Source: Sphingobacterium sp.
Lineage (GTDB): Bacteria > Bacteroidota > Bacteroidia > Sphingobacteriales > Sphingobacteriaceae
Reading direction: 5' to 3'
NCBI GenBank assembly: GCA_029239355.1
Contig: JAQZAZ010000006.1
Location: forward strand, 62,001 to 126,000
DNA length: 64,000 bases
Positions 21,193-28,042 of this stretch are shown one piece after another. The stretch's first letter is position 1; each line of letters begins with the position of its first letter. A program made the position numbers and the translations under genes. A model generated the notes under the pieces. That model was not told the origin of the DNA, did no database searches, and worked only from the letters and a program-made list of their open reading frames with translations.

Positions 21193-22218
21193 ATGGTTCA
21201 AATAAAAAAAATAAATGTAAAAAGACTCGTTATCTTTTTCTTCTCAACACTGATATATGCTTTGTGCCAAATGCTTTTCAGCATTATTTTAATGAAAGAA
21301 GATTTATGGAATAATTTCCATAAACAATTATCGGCTCATTATGTGGTAATCTTTGCGATGTGTATAGCAGATTACCGTTTATTGTTGATTTTGAACAAAT
21401 ATCTGCCTTATTCCAAAAATATATTTTTGCGCATTGTGGCAGACATTTTAGGTATAACCTTAATATGCCTGATATTACTATGGATATTCAATTTTTTGAT
21501 ATACGATGTATTTCTTGTTCCTAGGGACGGATTACCTCCTTTGTCCGTTAAATTCGCCTTTGCGATGGCCGCAAATATCCCTATTTTGTTGGTATTCGAA
21601 TTAATTCATTACTTCCAGTCCGAGCAAAAAGCCATCGCGGATTCCGAGAAAGTCAAACGTCAAGTTCTACTGTTCCAACATGAAACGTTAAGGTCACAGA
21701 TAAATCCTCATTTTCTGTTTAATTCCCTAAATGTACTGTCTTCACTGATATATATAAATCAGGAAAATGCCAATAAGTTTACCAAAGCGCTATCTAAAAC
21801 GTATCGATATGTATTATCTCTTACGCAGCAGCCGGTGGTGTCTATTGCGGAAGAATTGCTCGCTTTGGATTCCTATATATTCCTTATGAGAATGAGGTTT
21901 GAAAATGCTTTTACTTTTACAGTAAATAAAATAGTGTTCAGTGAACAAAACAAAATTATACCGCTTACTCTTCAACTATTGATAGAGAATGCATTCAAGC
22001 ACAATATCGCTACCGAAGAGTCAACATTGAATATTACAATTAATATTGATAAAGATTATATTACGGTCGAAAACAATATCCAGCCATCAGGCAGTACTGA
22101 CAAAGGCGGGATCGGATTAAGATATATTACCAAACAATATAAAATCCATGCTAAAGAAGTAAAGGTAGATCATACCGAACACATGTTTATTGTAAAAATC
22201 CCTTATATACATTCATGA
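21193..22218 (+). CDS. LytS/YehU-type sensor histidine kinase
   Basis: 341 residues: four hydrophobic helices (about 12-34, 46-62, 80-104 and 120-140), a coiled linker, then a His_kinase domain with the phospho-acceptor His173 in INPHFLFNSLN and an HATPase part (LIENAFKHN, GGIGLRYI). It has no extracellular domain of note, so it may sense a membrane or small-molecule signal. Its stop overlaps the start of the LytTR regulator (ATGA). A TATTTTTG box ends only 5 bp before the ATG, which would give an almost leaderless message. Confidence 0.9.
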   Translation: MVQIKKINVKRLVIFFFSTLIYALCQMLFSIILMKEDLWNNFHKQLSAHYVVIFAMCIADYRLLLILNKYLPYSKNIFLRIVADILGITLICLILLWIFNFLIYDVFLVPRDGLPPLSVKFAFAMAANIPILLVFELIHYFQSEQKAIADSEKVKRQVLLFQHETLRSQINPHFLFNSLNVLSSLIYINQENANKFTKALSKTYRYVLSLTQQPVVSIAEELLALDSYIFLMRMRFENAFTFTVNKIVFSEQNKIIPLTLQLLIENAFKHNIATEESTLNITINIDKDYITVENNIQPSGSTDKGGIGLRYITKQYKIHAKEVKVDHTEHMFIVKIPYIHS

Positions 22219-22970
22219 ATTACCTGATAGTAGAAGATGAGCGTTTTGCATACGAGGAACTGAGACGTATGATGATAAAATTACGTCCAGATTATATCTT
22301 GGAAAAGCAAACGAAAACGGTGGTAGATACCATCGGATTTCTCAAAGAATCTAATGTTGATTTGATTCTTATGGATATCCGCCTCGCAGACGGCAACTGC
22401 TTCGAAATATTTAACCACATAGAAATTATTATACCTGTTATATTTACGACAGCTTATGATGAACATGCCATCAAAGCGTTTAAACTTAACAGTATCGATT
22501 ACTTATTAAAACCATTTGATGAGAATGAATTAGAGGCTGCATTAACCAAATTTGAGAACATTTTTCATAACTCCCCTTATAAAAACAATACGAAGAATTT
22601 TGAGCAGCTGCTATCATTTAAAACCAAAAATCGTTTCCTAATATCCAAAGGGGAAAACTATCATTATATCGAAACCAAGGATATTGCTCACTTCTATAGT
22701 GAAGATGGGGTCGTATTCCTGCATACTTTCAACGATAGACGATATATCATTAATTATACATTAGACCAATTGGAGCAGCAGGTTGATAGCCGTTTGTTTT
22801 TCCGTGTATCACGTAATTGCATAGGGAATGTAAAAGCCATTGAAAATGTCGCAAAATACTTTAACAGCCGACTGAAACTTTCCTTTTCACCGGAATGCCC
22901 ACATGAGGTTTTGGTGAGCCGTGTACGTGTACCGGACTTTCTTAAATGGATGGATGGCATCCTGCAATAA
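22215..22970 (+). CDS. LytTR family response regulator
   Basis: 251 residues. The receiver domain (1-120) has acidic residues Glu7-Asp8, phospho-acceptor Asp54 (LILMDIRLADG), and Lys in YLLKPFDE; the LytTR DNA-binding domain (~145-250) shows NRFLISKGENYHYIETKDI and FFRVSRNCIGNVKAI. It is the cognate partner of the kinase by translational overlap. Likely targets are the beta-barrel gene 140 bp downstream and perhaps the envelope operon after it. Confidence 0.92.
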   Translation: MNYLIVEDERFAYEELRRMMIKLRPDYILEKQTKTVVDTIGFLKESNVDLILMDIRLADGNCFEIFNHIEIIIPVIFTTAYDEHAIKAFKLNSIDYLLKPFDENELEAALTKFENIFHNSPYKNNTKNFEQLLSFKTKNRFLISKGENYHYIETKDIAHFYSEDGVVFLHTFNDRRYIINYTLDQLEQQVDSRLFFRVSRNCIGNVKAIENVAKYFNSRLKLSFSPECPHEVLVSRVRVPDFLKWMDGILQ

Positions 22971-23109
22971 CTTGTTGCAGAAAAATCTATCCTTCGGATA
23001 TTGCATTTCATTTATTGGATTCTAAAGCCTATCGTTTACACATTCCATACATGCACCGTTCATCGTTCTTTTGTTCAGAATTAAAAAACAACTTCAAAAC
23101 TTTAGAACA

Positions 23110-23730
23110 ATGAAAAAGAACGTATTTACATTTTTTCTCGGATTAGGCGCATTGATTTTCTCCGCTCAATTATCAGCACAAGACAACCCTGTATCAATCG
23201 GTTTCAAAGCCGGAACAAGCCTTTCCAAATATCGGCTGAGTGGTAATATGGAAGGATTCAACAGTAAAATGAACATAGGCGGTTCGGTCGGCGGTTTCAT
23301 TAAATATGATCTAAGTCCAAATTTTGCACTGCAATCGGGTGTCGATCTGTATTACAGAACCTCTAAGCTGGAGACTATAACAGATAAAACATCTAATAAA
23401 ATTAAATCTTTGGGCGTGGAAATTCCACTATACGGAATTGTACAGGGTGAAATAGGGAGCGGAAAAGCCTTTATAGGAGCTGGTCCGTATATCGGCTATG
23501 GAATCATAACGAAGTCTGATGGTGTCAGCCTATTCAAAAATAGCAGCACAATAAACAGACCAGCTATGAACCGCTTTGATTACGGTGTGGGTGCTATTAT
23601 CGGTTATGACTTTGATAAAAATTGGCAAATAAATGCAAGTTATCAATTCGGGCTGTCAGATTTGCAGAAAGCCAAAGGAGGCGCGATGAAAAACAATGGT
23701 GCATCCCTCGGATTAGCCTATAAATTTTAA
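23110..23730 (+). CDS. Outer-membrane beta-barrel protein (porin family, OMP_b-brl type)
   Basis: 206 residues from MKKNVFTF at 23110; the ORF-track start 13 codons upstream lacks a signal. The signal peptide ends LSAQ. The mature protein alternates hydrophobic residues in strands (VSIGFKAGTSLSKYRL, FALQSGVDLYYR, KAFIGAGPYIGYG, WQINASYQFGLSDL) and ends with the barrel-assembly signal LAYKF (terminal Phe). It is an eight-strand, PorT-like small barrel. It directly follows the two-component genes, so it is a plausible target. Confidence 0.8.
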   Translation: MKKNVFTFFLGLGALIFSAQLSAQDNPVSIGFKAGTSLSKYRLSGNMEGFNSKMNIGGSVGGFIKYDLSPNFALQSGVDLYYRTSKLETITDKTSNKIKSLGVEIPLYGIVQGEIGSGKAFIGAGPYIGYGIITKSDGVSLFKNSSTINRPAMNRFDYGVGAIIGYDFDKNWQINASYQFGLSDLQKAKGGAMKNNGASLGLAYKF

Positions 23731-23973: not shown

Positions 23974-24900
23974 GTGAAGTCAATAATATTATTCTTACCA
24001 ACATTAGTTATGTTGGTAGCGCTAGAATCAAACGCACAGCAGGTGTCCTTCAGGACAGAGTACATTGGAAATTCGGGCTACTATTATTTACCTCCTGGCG
24101 AGAAACCGAGAGAAAAAATTGGTAATGCAAAGGGCTCAGCCATGGTCTATCAGGGAATGTTCAGTATGCCCTTATCCATGAAATTGAATGAGAACAATCG
24201 CCCGACAGCTTGGGGAATTGGTTTTGGAGGTGCATATGTCTCTTTGAAAAACCGAAACTTTTCGCAACCCATGGTGTCTGAAATTATGAATTTACAATTG
24301 GGCGTTTATCATTTACGTCCCTTAAACGACAGGTGGTCTATGCGGGCAAGTGCAGGAATGGGCATTTTTTCTCCTACTACCGATTTTTCCAAAATTACTT
24401 TTAAAAATGTGCTCGCAAGTGGCGGCCTTGTTTTTATCCGTCATCTGAATCCGAATCTGGATATTGGCGGAGGTGCGGCAATCAATAGTTCTCTGGGTTA
24501 TCCTATGATATTCCCCGCAGTTTATGTTAAATGGAAGCTCCAGGGGAAATACGATGTAAATGTTGAAGTGATCGAGGGACTCGAGTTATCCGCAGGTTAT
24601 CAGTTCAACGAGAAACTCAGACTGTCATATGCACTTGAGATGAATGGGCAGGTTGCCCTTCTGCAAAAGGACGGTAAAGATGTGATATTTTCCCATCAAT
24701 ATATTGTTACTGGATTCCGCCCTGAAGTAAAAGTTGGGACGAAAGGGGTAACACTTACGGGGATGGCAGGCCTAAACCTGTACCGCCCCGCTACTTACAG
24801 CGACAGAACTTTGAAAGGGGTATTTGCAGGTGATAATGACTATCATTTTTCGGTCTCTCCCTATGCGTCCATTGGTTTAAAAATAAATTTTAACCAATGA
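23974..24900 (+). CDS. DUF6268-like outer-membrane beta-barrel protein
   Basis: About 308 residues from a GTG at 23974, which gives a clean signal (KSIILFLPTLVMLVALESNAQ); the ORF-track Met 14 codons upstream is possible. The mature part is barrel-like throughout, with repeated amphipathic strands (WGIGFGGAYVSL, LQLGVYHL, MRASAGMGIF, YVKWKL, ELSAGYQF) and a C-terminal SIGLKINFNQ. It resembles the DUF6268 family of Bacteroidota. Its stop codon overlaps the start of the acyltransferase gene (ATGA), so both are translated together. Confidence 0.7.
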   Translation: MKSIILFLPTLVMLVALESNAQQVSFRTEYIGNSGYYYLPPGEKPREKIGNAKGSAMVYQGMFSMPLSMKLNENNRPTAWGIGFGGAYVSLKNRNFSQPMVSEIMNLQLGVYHLRPLNDRWSMRASAGMGIFSPTTDFSKITFKNVLASGGLVFIRHLNPNLDIGGGAAINSSLGYPMIFPAVYVKWKLQGKYDVNVEVIEGLELSAGYQFNEKLRLSYALEMNGQVALLQKDGKDVIFSHQYIVTGFRPEVKVGTKGVTLTGMAGLNLYRPATYSDRTLKGVFAGDNDYHFSVSPYASIGLKINFNQ

Positions 24901-25772
24901 AAATGAAGCAAGCCTTACAGACTGTTGCATATAGAGGTATTTATATAGTTATCTATGCCATGAGTTTGCTGCCAATCGGATTTCTATATGCAATAGCTTC
25001 TTTTACTTTTTTCATTGTTTATCACTTCATTGGGTATAGAAAAGCGGTAGCACTCCAAAATATTGCACGTTCATTTCCCGAAAAACGATATGGAGAAGTG
25101 CACGCTATCGCAAAAAAGTTTTATGCTTGCTTTTTCTCCTATTTTGCTGAAATTATAAAAAGTATATCTGCTCCAGCAAAGGAGCTTGATCAAAAAATAA
25201 CATTTGAGAATCTAGCGTTAGTAGATCAGTATATAAACTCGGACCGAAACGTTATAGCCTGTTTAGGGCATTGTGGCAATTGGGAAATATTAAATTTCAT
25301 GCCATACAAAATACACCGGCAAATCTACGCCATTTACAGACCCCTTAGGTCTGTAACGATGGACAGATTGATGATTAAACTAAGGTCACGTTTTGGTGTG
25401 AAGCTAGTAGCTGATCACAAAGTAGTGCGCCATATTCTATCCAAAACCTCAGACCCAGCTGTTTATCTTTTTCTTGCAGACCAAAGTCCGCGTACAAAAG
25501 ATGAAAATTATAAATTTACCTTTTTGAATCAGCAAACATATTTTTTTTCAGGTCTGGAGAAATTGGCTCGCAAAGGGTGTACGTCAGTTATCTATCTGCA
25601 TATTACACAGCTATCAAAAGGAAACTACAAAATTGCTTGCATTCCGATATGCTCTCATGCAGAACTTACGGCAGAAGGCGAAATAACCCAAAAGTACATC
25701 GATCTACTAACAGAAAATATTAGGGAAGAACCGTACGGTTGGCTGTGGACACATAAGCGGTGGAAACGATGA
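24897..25772 (+). CDS. Lipid A biosynthesis acyltransferase (LpxL/HtrB family)
   Basis: 291 residues: an N-terminal membrane helix (~18-45), then the acyltransferase core with the catalytic HX4E motif at His125-Glu130 (LGHCGNWE), a second conserved block IYRPLRS, and FLADQSPR. The C-terminus 'EEPYGWLWTHKRWK' is the family signature. It transfers an acyl chain from acyl-ACP to a lipid at the inner membrane, for lipid A or, in this phylum, possibly ornithine/glycine lipids. It is translationally coupled to the barrel gene upstream; two unknown genes follow in the same direction. Confidence 0.9.
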   Translation: MKMKQALQTVAYRGIYIVIYAMSLLPIGFLYAIASFTFFIVYHFIGYRKAVALQNIARSFPEKRYGEVHAIAKKFYACFFSYFAEIIKSISAPAKELDQKITFENLALVDQYINSDRNVIACLGHCGNWEILNFMPYKIHRQIYAIYRPLRSVTMDRLMIKLRSRFGVKLVADHKVVRHILSKTSDPAVYLFLADQSPRTKDENYKFTFLNQQTYFFSGLEKLARKGCTSVIYLHITQLSKGNYKIACIPICSHAELTAEGEITQKYIDLLTENIREEPYGWLWTHKRWKR

Positions 25773-25842
25773 CAGTTTTTCTTAAAACAGTGTTCGAGGA
25801 CTGACTTTAAAATGTGGTATGTAGTTTTAAAAATATCTGAAA

Positions 25843-26229
25843 ATGAAATATTTATTGATTAATGATAAAAATCAGCAAGAACAAGCTTTAATCGACGATA
25901 TTGCAGAGTTTTTATGGAACAATGGAAATGAGATATATGTTCGGGCCGATTTGGTTAAAAATGAGGATTATCGAGTTATTAAAAGTCAATATGATTGTAT
26001 AGTGTACTTAATTTGTAGGGATGATTCGATAGGATCTTTTTTCCCTGATGCAAATACTGTAGCGAGAAACAGCCTTAATAAAAAATTTGTACTGATTTTC
26101 TCCATTAACGGTGTATACTGCAATGCCATTCCCTTTCCGCATAAAATTTTTCATTTTGACGGGTTGAACCAACACGAGCTGACACGCTTTTTCCTTTGGT
26201 GTGAAAACTTAAAACTATTTATCAAATAG
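25843..26229 (+). CDS. Small alpha/beta protein of unknown function
   Basis: 128 residues, no signal or membrane helix. The strand-helix alternation (KYLLINDKN; EIYVRADL; YDCIVYLICRDDS; KFVLIFSING; KIFHFDG; ELTRFFLWCE) suggests a Rossmann- or TIR-like three-layer fold, but no catalytic signature is evident and no family is recognised. It lies 70 bp after the acyltransferase and 61 bp before the DUF6695-like gene, so it probably belongs to their operon. Confidence 0.55.
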   Translation: MKYLLINDKNQQEQALIDDIAEFLWNNGNEIYVRADLVKNEDYRVIKSQYDCIVYLICRDDSIGSFFPDANTVARNSLNKKFVLIFSINGVYCNAIPFPHKIFHFDGLNQHELTRFFLWCENLKLFIK

Positions 26230-26290
26230 TGACTGAGCACAACTTACCAAAATTCCTATTACCCTAAACTCAAATTTTAAGATAAGTTCC

Positions 26291-27376
26291 ATGTACTCAA
26301 ATATAACCTACAACGATATAGCCATTATTTTAACATGGCCAAATGCAACAATTCGTGGAGACGAAAAATGGATGATGTTTTTTAAGAAAATTGGCATTGT
26401 AAAGAATTTAAATTTTAAAGTCGGTCACACAGGTATCGTTTTAATTAAACGGGAAACCGGTGAAATGCTTTATTATGACTTTGGACGTTATATTACACCT
26501 CGGGGATACGGACGTGCGCGATCCAAATTTTCTGACCCTCACTTAGACATCGATCTAAAGGTAACGTTTGAAAACGAACACATTGCTAACCTTGAAGAAA
26601 TTGTCGAACAGTTTGAAGCATTGAAATCTGTCTTTAATGGATCTGGTATTCTTTACTTCTCTATCGCTCGTGACATAAACTTTATGCTCGCCAAAACTTA
26701 TGGTGACGACTGTGTGCGTCAAGGGAGCTACCCATATGGTGCAATATCACATAGTAATAATAATTGTTCACGCTTTATTGCCCGTATGCTGAGACGCGCG
26801 TCTATACGATACAATTGGAGTCACGGCATCAATTTTCCTGAAACAATTAAAGCAAGCCCAATTAGCAATGTGGTTAATGTAGCGCCTGACCGGATGATAT
26901 ATTCTTATTCAGAGGAGCAAGGTTTAAAACGTTTTAAAATGAATCGTTTGCAATCCCTAGGATTTCTATTGAAGAATCTGGGAGATAGTGTAAAACTAAA
27001 AAAAGCAAAGTTTCTGCCCAATGATAAAAGTATTGGCTCAATGAGCTTTTTTTATAAACCTACTACTTTACCTCATGATGCGCAATATCTCGGCGGTGTG
27101 GGTGACGGGGCTTGGTTTTGTATACGACCCGCATACAAGGATAAATTCGTCATCAAAAGGTTTACCTCAAATGGGGAATTGGAGTACGCCGTATTAGGTG
27201 AAATAAGCCAACCGATCGAACTATCACAACCGTTTGAAATTTCGTATGATAGCAACCTACTTTTTACTCATGTCAAGCAAAGCGGGTGTAAAATTCGTAT
27301 TAATCACGTACAACGGCTTCCTATAGAACGTTTGTCTAGGCTAAAAGAATTTATTCTTAAAAAGGTCGGAGGGTGA
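26291..27376 (+). CDS. DUF6695-like protein, putative permuted papain-fold (YiiX/LRAT-type) domain
   Basis: 361 residues. The first ~200 carry KVGHTGIVLI, then LYYDFGRYITPRGYGRARSKFSDP, and later NNCSRFIARML. A His in 'GH.GIV' preceding a Cys in 'NCSrf' is the order of permuted NlpC/P60 (YiiX/YaeF/LRAT) enzymes, so His42 and the Cys near residue 156 are candidate catalytic residues. The family looks like DUF6695, which has no known activity. The C-terminal ~150 residues have beta-rich repeats, perhaps a binding domain. No signal peptide is seen. Confidence 0.6.
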   Translation: MYSNITYNDIAIILTWPNATIRGDEKWMMFFKKIGIVKNLNFKVGHTGIVLIKRETGEMLYYDFGRYITPRGYGRARSKFSDPHLDIDLKVTFENEHIANLEEIVEQFEALKSVFNGSGILYFSIARDINFMLAKTYGDDCVRQGSYPYGAISHSNNNCSRFIARMLRRASIRYNWSHGINFPETIKASPISNVVNVAPDRMIYSYSEEQGLKRFKMNRLQSLGFLLKNLGDSVKLKKAKFLPNDKSIGSMSFFYKPTTLPHDAQYLGGVGDGAWFCIRPAYKDKFVIKRFTSNGELEYAVLGEISQPIELSQPFEISYDSNLLFTHVKQSGCKIRINHVQRLPIERLSRLKEFILKKVGG

Positions 27377-27644: not shown

Positions 27645-27974
27645 ATGAACAAAAACCAAATAACGCAAGATCAGCATCAAGGTATGCAGATCATTGCATT
27701 CGCGATTGTACCACAAACGGGCCCGGAGAATCTTCCTAACGATATACCAAATAGTCCAGAAGAAGAATTTCCCGAAAACGAACCCGATGAAGCTCCCGAA
27801 ATGCCGGATCAGGATGATTTAGGCTTTGACGAAGAGGTAGGAATAGAAGGCGAAAATGCATTTCCAGAAATTGATGAACAGGAAATTGGTGAACAGGAAG
27901 AAGCGAATGACGCAGAGGGGCTTCCAGTCCAGCCTCCGGCACCGTCCTCAGACTTAGATGAAACAACTATCTAG
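27645..27974 (+). CDS. Highly acidic, probably disordered small protein
   Basis: 109 residues with about 20 Glu and 10 Asp, only one Lys, no Arg, and many Pro (PEEEFPENEPDEAPEMP). Apart from a short hydrophobic stretch near the N-terminus (MQIIAFAIVP) it should be disordered. No family is recognised. It stands alone, 268 bp after the DUF6695-like gene, and ends at a good terminator. Such composition fits a calcium-binding, chaperone-like or DNA-mimic protein, but none of these is shown. Confidence 0.55.
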   Translation: MNKNQITQDQHQGMQIIAFAIVPQTGPENLPNDIPNSPEEEFPENEPDEAPEMPDQDDLGFDEEVGIEGENAFPEIDEQEIGEQEEANDAEGLPVQPPAPSSDLDETTI

Positions 27975-28003: not shown

Positions 28004-28042
28004 ATGGGCTAACTTTAATATTAGCCCATTGCTTATTTTTTT
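28004..28042 (+). terminator. Intrinsic terminator
   Basis: A perfect 9-bp stem ATGGGCTAA / TTAGCCCAT with an 8-nt loop and a TTATTTTTTT tail. It ends the acidic-protein transcript. Confidence 0.85.

Follow-up and report, generated by a model that had tools for sequence, protein, structure and literature searches.

A conserved LytS/LytTR, DUF6268 barrel and LpxL-type acyltransferase unit in Sphingobacterium, with TseH/DUF6695 as an optional downstream gene

Introduction

Do four consecutive genes in a Sphingobacterium genome form one dedicated pathway for an envelope lipid, or is the conserved unit at this locus a different set of genes? The locus lies in a stretch of 64,000 nucleotides (contig JAQZAZ010000006.1, positions 62,001 to 126,000), here called the window, from a genome (G000) that is close to S. 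prati. At positions 23974-27376 the list of open reading frames (ORFs) and Pfam place an outer-membrane barrel, an LpxL-type acyltransferase, a protein of 128 amino acids (aa) and a papain-like protein with His before Cys, as a preliminary description of the window had reported. That description took the four genes for a single lipid-modifying or lipid-export unit that an upstream LytS/LytTR pair might control. The unit that is conserved is instead made up of LytS, LytTR, a small outer-membrane protein (OMP), the DUF6268 barrel and the acyltransferase (LpxL2), and the last two of the four genes are optional. The seven genes of this wider unit, in window coordinates, are:

21193..22218, + strand: LytS-type sensor histidine kinase, with which the conserved unit begins (Pfam His_kinase 78.8 bits, cut-off 25.2)
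22215..22970, + strand: LytTR response regulator, with a 4-base overlap with LytS (Pfam Response_reg and LytTR, above cut-off)
23110..23730, + strand: small outer-membrane beta-barrel protein (Pfam OMP_b-brl_2 68 bits, cut-off 27)
23974..24900, + strand: DUF6268 outer-membrane barrel, with a GTG start and a signal peptide-like N-terminus (PF19783 336 bits, cut-off 22.8)
24897..25772, + strand: LpxL2, second LpxL-type acyltransferase (PF03279 Lip_A_acyltrans 118 bits, cut-off 22.3)
25843..26229, + strand: U128, 128-aa alpha/beta protein, optional gene (no Pfam family)
26291..27376, + strand: TseH/DUF6695 permuted NlpC/P60 protein, 361 aa, optional gene (PF25218, TseH, 197 bits, cut-off 27; PF20405, DUF6695 C-terminal, 77 bits, cut-off 25)

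The start of the small OMP is taken as the ATG at 23110; the ORF list has a TTG at 23071.

A conserved five-gene unit

Close orthologues of the DUF6268 barrel and of LpxL2 are adjacent and occur together in the same eight of 37 genomes of the genus (G000, G001, G008, G009, G014, G018, G024 and G025), with neither found in the remaining genomes; in G016 LpxL2 is reduced to a 56-aa remnant. LytS, LytTR and the small OMP precede the pair in the same order in all seven of the genomes whose flanks were read, the eighth (G001) carrying the pair on a short contig, and LytTR is 86-98% identical in the other operons of the genus. The same five-gene unit is found in Olivibacter jilunii P8502 (L136) and in Sphingobacterium sp. 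SGR-19 (L249), so that the suspected link of the barrel and acyltransferase genes to the upstream LytS/LytTR pair is upheld wherever the flank could be read. The conserved unit is LytS-LytTR-OMP-DUF6268-LpxL2, not the four-gene set, and it defines a signalling-plus-envelope module that has no name as yet.

Within the window, the barrel stop codon and the LpxL2 ATG share four bases (ATGA at 24897), which agrees with the translational coupling noted earlier, and the spacing previously given for the last two genes is confirmed at 70 bp between LpxL2 and U128 and 61 bp between U128 and the DUF6695 gene. The ratio of nonsynonymous to synonymous substitution rates (dN/dS) for all seven genes is 0.05-0.31 against the nearest relative and 0.04-0.135 against the more distant S. 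puteale, low values in both comparisons that mark these genes as real and under purifying selection. No terminator-like site lies within the intergenic gaps, and the next good stem-loop is the second of two features that follow the DUF6695 gene:

27645..27974, + strand: acidic Glu/Pro-rich 109-aa ORF, possibly the transcript end (no Pfam family; 94.5% identical in G009, dN/dS 0.12)
28004..28029, + strand: terminator-like stem-loop of 9 pairs (weak, as the region has 4 such sites against 5.1 expected by chance)

Among the loci read, the 109-aa ORF has a homologue in G009 only.

LpxL2 belongs to the LpxL/LpxM family by its PF03279 match and by an HX4E motif that is intact, as first described (HCGNWE at residue 125). 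The motif is kept in 9/9 aligned operon copies and also in G011, where an LpxL-type gene is coupled to a DUF6268 gene in the opposite order. The same genome as the window holds a separate housekeeping LpxL, 35% identical to LpxL2, in a WbqC-LpxL-GT2-ligA-dapA neighbourhood (neighbour names read from the sequences). A third LpxL-like type of about 250-270 aa (L270, 7078-8563; L071, 8361-10093) has a small OMP-like gene as its neighbour in G033; in G011 it is the one whose coupling to DUF6268 is reversed.

The DUF6268 barrel keeps regulatory company beyond this operon. Strong DUF6268 matches in other families of the class adjoin LytS/LytTR-type genes (L223-L226, L229-L231), as does a second DUF6268 paralogue of Sphingobacterium, and most of the weaker matches are without such neighbours. 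At one locus (L232) a DUF6268 barrel sits behind a pump composed of TolC, a membrane fusion protein (MFP) and an RND transporter. The literature on DUF6268 yielded a passing mention and nothing beyond it, and the pattern described here provides these barrels with a recurring genetic partner.

A TseH-like permuted NlpC/P60 protein

Permuted NlpC/P60 enzymes (PPNE) are defined by the order His, polar residue, Tyr and Cys, and have a lipid-type pocket (PMC3142127). The 361-aa protein has this order as H46, D63, Y149 and C159, all invariant in 46 relatives, with D63 and Y149 given the polar and Tyr roles by order and not by superposition. Its AlphaFold2 model (mean predicted local distance difference test score, pLDDT, 90.5) has a single significant PDB match, TseH (6v98; E 3.4e-8, TM-score 0.75 by target length), which a sequence profile search of the PDB also returns. 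YiiX and LRAT are absent from the PDB sequence matches and from the 50 listed fold matches of the model. The preliminary description was thus right about a permuted papain-like protein with His before Cys, but the His is residue 46, together with Cys159, and not residue 42; the resemblance to YiiX and LRAT stands for the permuted superfamily as a whole, whereas the closest solved relative is TseH.

With regard to activity, one study (PMC12994826) treats the TseH clade and DUF6695 as the same family and found hydrolysis by TseH of an analogue of phosphatidylethanolamine (PE) in liposomes at pH 8.9, the control being a catalytic mutant; in a mass-spectrometry assay neither phosphatidylglycerol (PG) nor PE was hydrolysed. 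As these assays are split, a lipid activity is plausible but not settled. The search for literature on DUF6695 returned nothing of relevance beyond that study. Distant DUF6695 genes of the Bacteroidota (L261, L263, L264, L266 and L267) overlap or abut genes for TANGO2, a fatty-acid hydroxylase and a polyprenyl synthase, which favours lipid or acyl chemistry, and the action on acyl groups that was first suggested for the 361-aa protein is supported by its residue order and modelled fold as a probable one. The sequence shows no evident signal peptide, so the protein is probably cytoplasmic. Loci of this kind make the question of lipid versus peptidoglycan as the target of TseH-like enzymes one that can be tested in a harmless host.

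The top match by both sequence and fold is an effector of the type VI secretion system (T6SS), the TseH clade has been tied to conflict loci (PMC12994826), and a small gene of no known family lies directly upstream; the 361-aa protein could therefore be an antibacterial TseH-like effector with U128 as its immunity protein. The T6SS sheath gene (PF05943) was found in 0/41 genomes, 25 of them from the genus, while the Escherichia coli control was positive, and this makes an effector function unlikely (a further marker, PF17541, gave 0/41 but was silent in the controls too and was not used). U128 is also found apart from DUF6695, in G025 and as many paralogues, and in about 60 cases at the suf locus described below DUF6695 lacks a U128 partner. 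Moreover, there are no secretion or toxin neighbours, and DUF6695 is a single chromosomal gene, inherited with the genus and present in nearly all of it. With no sheath gene and no co-occurrence, the pairing of effector and immunity protein is rejected as highly improbable. Within Sphingobacterium, a family named for an effector consists of ordinary chromosomal genes, with lipid-type neighbours in distant relatives.

In most of the genomes that bear it, a second DUF6695 clade, about 40% identical, is flanked by a PALP enzyme and a second PanD (31 tree rows; L079, L081, L098-L103, L115-L123, L184-L202 and L265). In Parapedobacter no PALP was seen beside DUF6695-PanD, and G519, from outside the class, has the triad as well. 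The PanD of the triad is a second paralogue, with the housekeeping PanD elsewhere in the same genomes, and for two of three PALPs tested the best NCBIfam match is the cysteate synthase CapA, at 288-290 against a cut-off of 600. Gene order allows the guess that the triad makes an amine or a sulfonate and then acylates it. In a broader and decidedly speculative proposal, the DUF6695 proteins of the Bacteroidota would not be effectors; they would act in the cytoplasm on small amines and lipids, as acyltransferases or acyl hydrolases. Those of the triad would acylate or deacylate the amine produced by the cysteate-synthase-like enzyme and the second PanD, the product being an N-acyl amine or sulfonate lipid not yet described, and the window copy would perform the same chemistry under LytS/LytTR beside LpxL2. 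The PALP-DUF6695-PanD2 operon offers a route to a natural substrate.

Origin of the downstream genes

DUF6695 follows LpxL2 in only three of the eight genomes with the pair (G000, G009 and G018) and in Olivibacter. At about 60 Sphingobacterium loci it lies instead after an AsnC/Lrp regulator, between ung and sufBCD, with neither the barrel nor LpxL2. In a maximum-likelihood tree of 100 DUF6695 proteins the operon copies are nested in the suf-locus clade (support 100/93), next to those of S. arenae, S. chuzhouense and S. phlebotomi. G000 and G009 have AsnC directly beside ung and lack the suf-locus DUF6695, and S. puteale (G018) has kept both copies, which match the window protein at 57% and 75% identity. 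The usual position at suf, the nesting in the tree and the pattern in these three genomes together indicate that DUF6695 was moved or copied into the operon later and then travelled with it.

An additional arrival is seen in SGR-19, in which the order is LytS-LytTR-OMP-DUF6268-LpxL2-TolC-MFP-RND-DUF6695. The DUF6695 of SGR-19 diverges and ends early, after about residue 183, and the MFP is split in two frames. This copy is from a different subclade, in which the S. paludis and S. psychroaquaticum copies are also placed; in these species TolC-MFP-RND-DUF6695 is next to another LytS/LytTR pair. At three loci (L143, L144 and L249) DUF6695 is thus behind a TolC-MFP-RND pump next to a LytS/LytTR pair, and in L143 and L144 the gene after it is of the RteC family. 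By its phylogeny and gene order, DUF6695 appears to have been recruited to the DUF6268-LpxL2 operon at least twice, and two separate arrivals in the same operon are modest evidence of a functional link.

U128 follows LpxL2 in four of the eight genomes (G000, G009, G018 and G025) and in Olivibacter. It has no Pfam family, no PDB sequence match and no significant PDB fold match; the best matches of its AlphaFold2 model (pLDDT 79) are to generic alpha/beta folds of the flavodoxin, TIR or deoxyribosyltransferase-like kind, all above E 0.005, and none was accepted as its fold. Paralogues of U128 (L106, L110 and L111) lie behind an AraC regulator and a FAD-binding gene of the siderophore type, the neighbours having been checked with Pfam at L110 and read at L106 and L111 by likeness of order and sequence start.

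These distributions bear on whether the four genes are one dedicated lipid-modifying or lipid-export pathway. All four are co-directional and under purifying selection, Olivibacter likewise has U128 and then DUF6695 behind LpxL2, and one of the two DUF6695 arrivals came along with an RND exporter. On the other hand, five of the eight pair-bearing genomes lack DUF6695 at this position and four lack U128, DUF6695 is mostly found at the suf locus without the partner genes, and its presence in a genome is independent of the barrel-LpxL2 pair (7/8 versus 24/29, Fisher p = 1). A single pathway is accordingly improbable. The four genes stay together in relatives only in part: the barrel and LpxL2 remain paired (8/8), while U128 and DUF6695 are patchy. 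What is strengthened of the earlier idea is its barrel, acyltransferase and regulator, not the four-gene pathway.

The same patchiness, relocation and independence could also mean that U128 and DUF6695 are unrelated cargo that landed behind LpxL2 and share a neighbourhood only. Both genes have been kept in Olivibacter and in three Sphingobacterium genomes under purifying selection, and SGR-19 shows a second, independent recruitment; chance cargo is for these reasons rather unlikely.

A proposed regulated envelope-lipid module

The reading preferred here, with a probability of about 0.5, is a LytS/LytTR-controlled envelope-lipid module of five genes, with LpxL2 as the core enzyme and a variable downstream slot for accessory genes. 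An envelope signal would be sensed by LytS, and phosphorylated LytTR would turn on the downstream genes. At the inner membrane LpxL2 would acylate lipid A or a different envelope lipid, and both barrels would have their role in the outer membrane. Downstream of LpxL2 would be the slot in which the window lineage gained U128 and the TseH/DUF6695 enzyme, the latter from the suf locus of a relative like S. arenae or S. phlebotomi. This enzyme, probably cytoplasmic, may act through Cys159/His46 to cleave or transfer the acyl groups of membrane lipids or of acylated amines, and would help envelope-lipid turnover as something other than a required step.

Several observations weigh against such a module. 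No promoter or LytTR site has been identified in the operon, and we therefore infer co-regulation by LytTR from gene order; the substrates and the direction of the acyl reactions are likewise inferred, whereas the analysis does show the gene anatomy, its conservation, the relocation of DUF6695 and the assignments to family and fold. The Bacteroidota promoter motif TTTG-N-TANNTTTG is absent from the operon, and its matches across the window are not above chance. The gaps of 61-70 bp would permit separate promoters, U128 offers no functional clue, DUF6695 is distributed independently of the pair, and its RND-associated copy in SGR-19 is truncated. LpxL2 itself scores under all NCBIfam equivalog cut-offs (best 119 bits against 248), which makes lipid A no more than a candidate substrate.

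This last point also bears on a variant of the five-gene module that differs in substrate only, in which LpxL2 acylates a product other than lipopolysaccharide (LPS). Surveyed Bacteroides species have one LpxL each, except B. vulgatus, whose second homologue lies in an aryl polyene cluster and is thought to use a non-LPS substrate (PMC5850320). LpxL2 resembles that precedent as a second paralogue below the equivalog cut-offs, but its flanks, part of which were scanned with Pfam, showed no recognisable ketosynthase or any further gene of an aryl polyene cluster. Lipid A and a non-LPS product are both possible substrates, and the non-LPS variant is regarded as rather unlikely.

Comparison with known systems

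The module shares features with several described systems and departs from each. As in LytS/LytTR two-component systems, a His_kinase gene adjoins and overlaps a Response_reg-LytTR gene, with domains above cut-off; here the pair is joined by a DUF6268 barrel and LpxL2, and no description of this arrangement was found in the literature searched, which also gave nothing relevant on LytTR with LpxL or efflux in the Bacteroidota. LpxL2 is like the LpxL/LpxM secondary lipid A acyltransferases in its Pfam match, HX4E motif and N-terminal hydrophobic helix, and differs in being a second paralogue that scores below the equivalog cut-offs, is translationally coupled with the gene of an outer-membrane barrel and is associated with a two-component system. 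The DUF6268 barrel has a weak likeness to the lipid A deacylase PagL (PF09411, 21.5 bits), but the score is under the cut-off of 23 and the conserved His-x-Ser is missing from the DUF6268 alignment, and identity with PagL is rejected.

The 361-aa protein shares the His, polar, Tyr, Cys order with YiiX, LRAT, Tox-Act1 and Lnb (DUF4105), for which acyl-group activity has been proposed or shown; YiiX and LRAT are not among its listed PDB fold matches, and kinship with them is at the superfamily level only. Its likeness to TseH (VCA0285, PDB 6v98) is closer, with both Pfam models far above cut-off, a fold match and the same order of His before Cys. The window protein differs from TseH in its added C-terminal DUF6695 beta domain and in its setting, in which no T6SS and no effector context were found and DUF6695 is a chromosomal gene of most of the genus.

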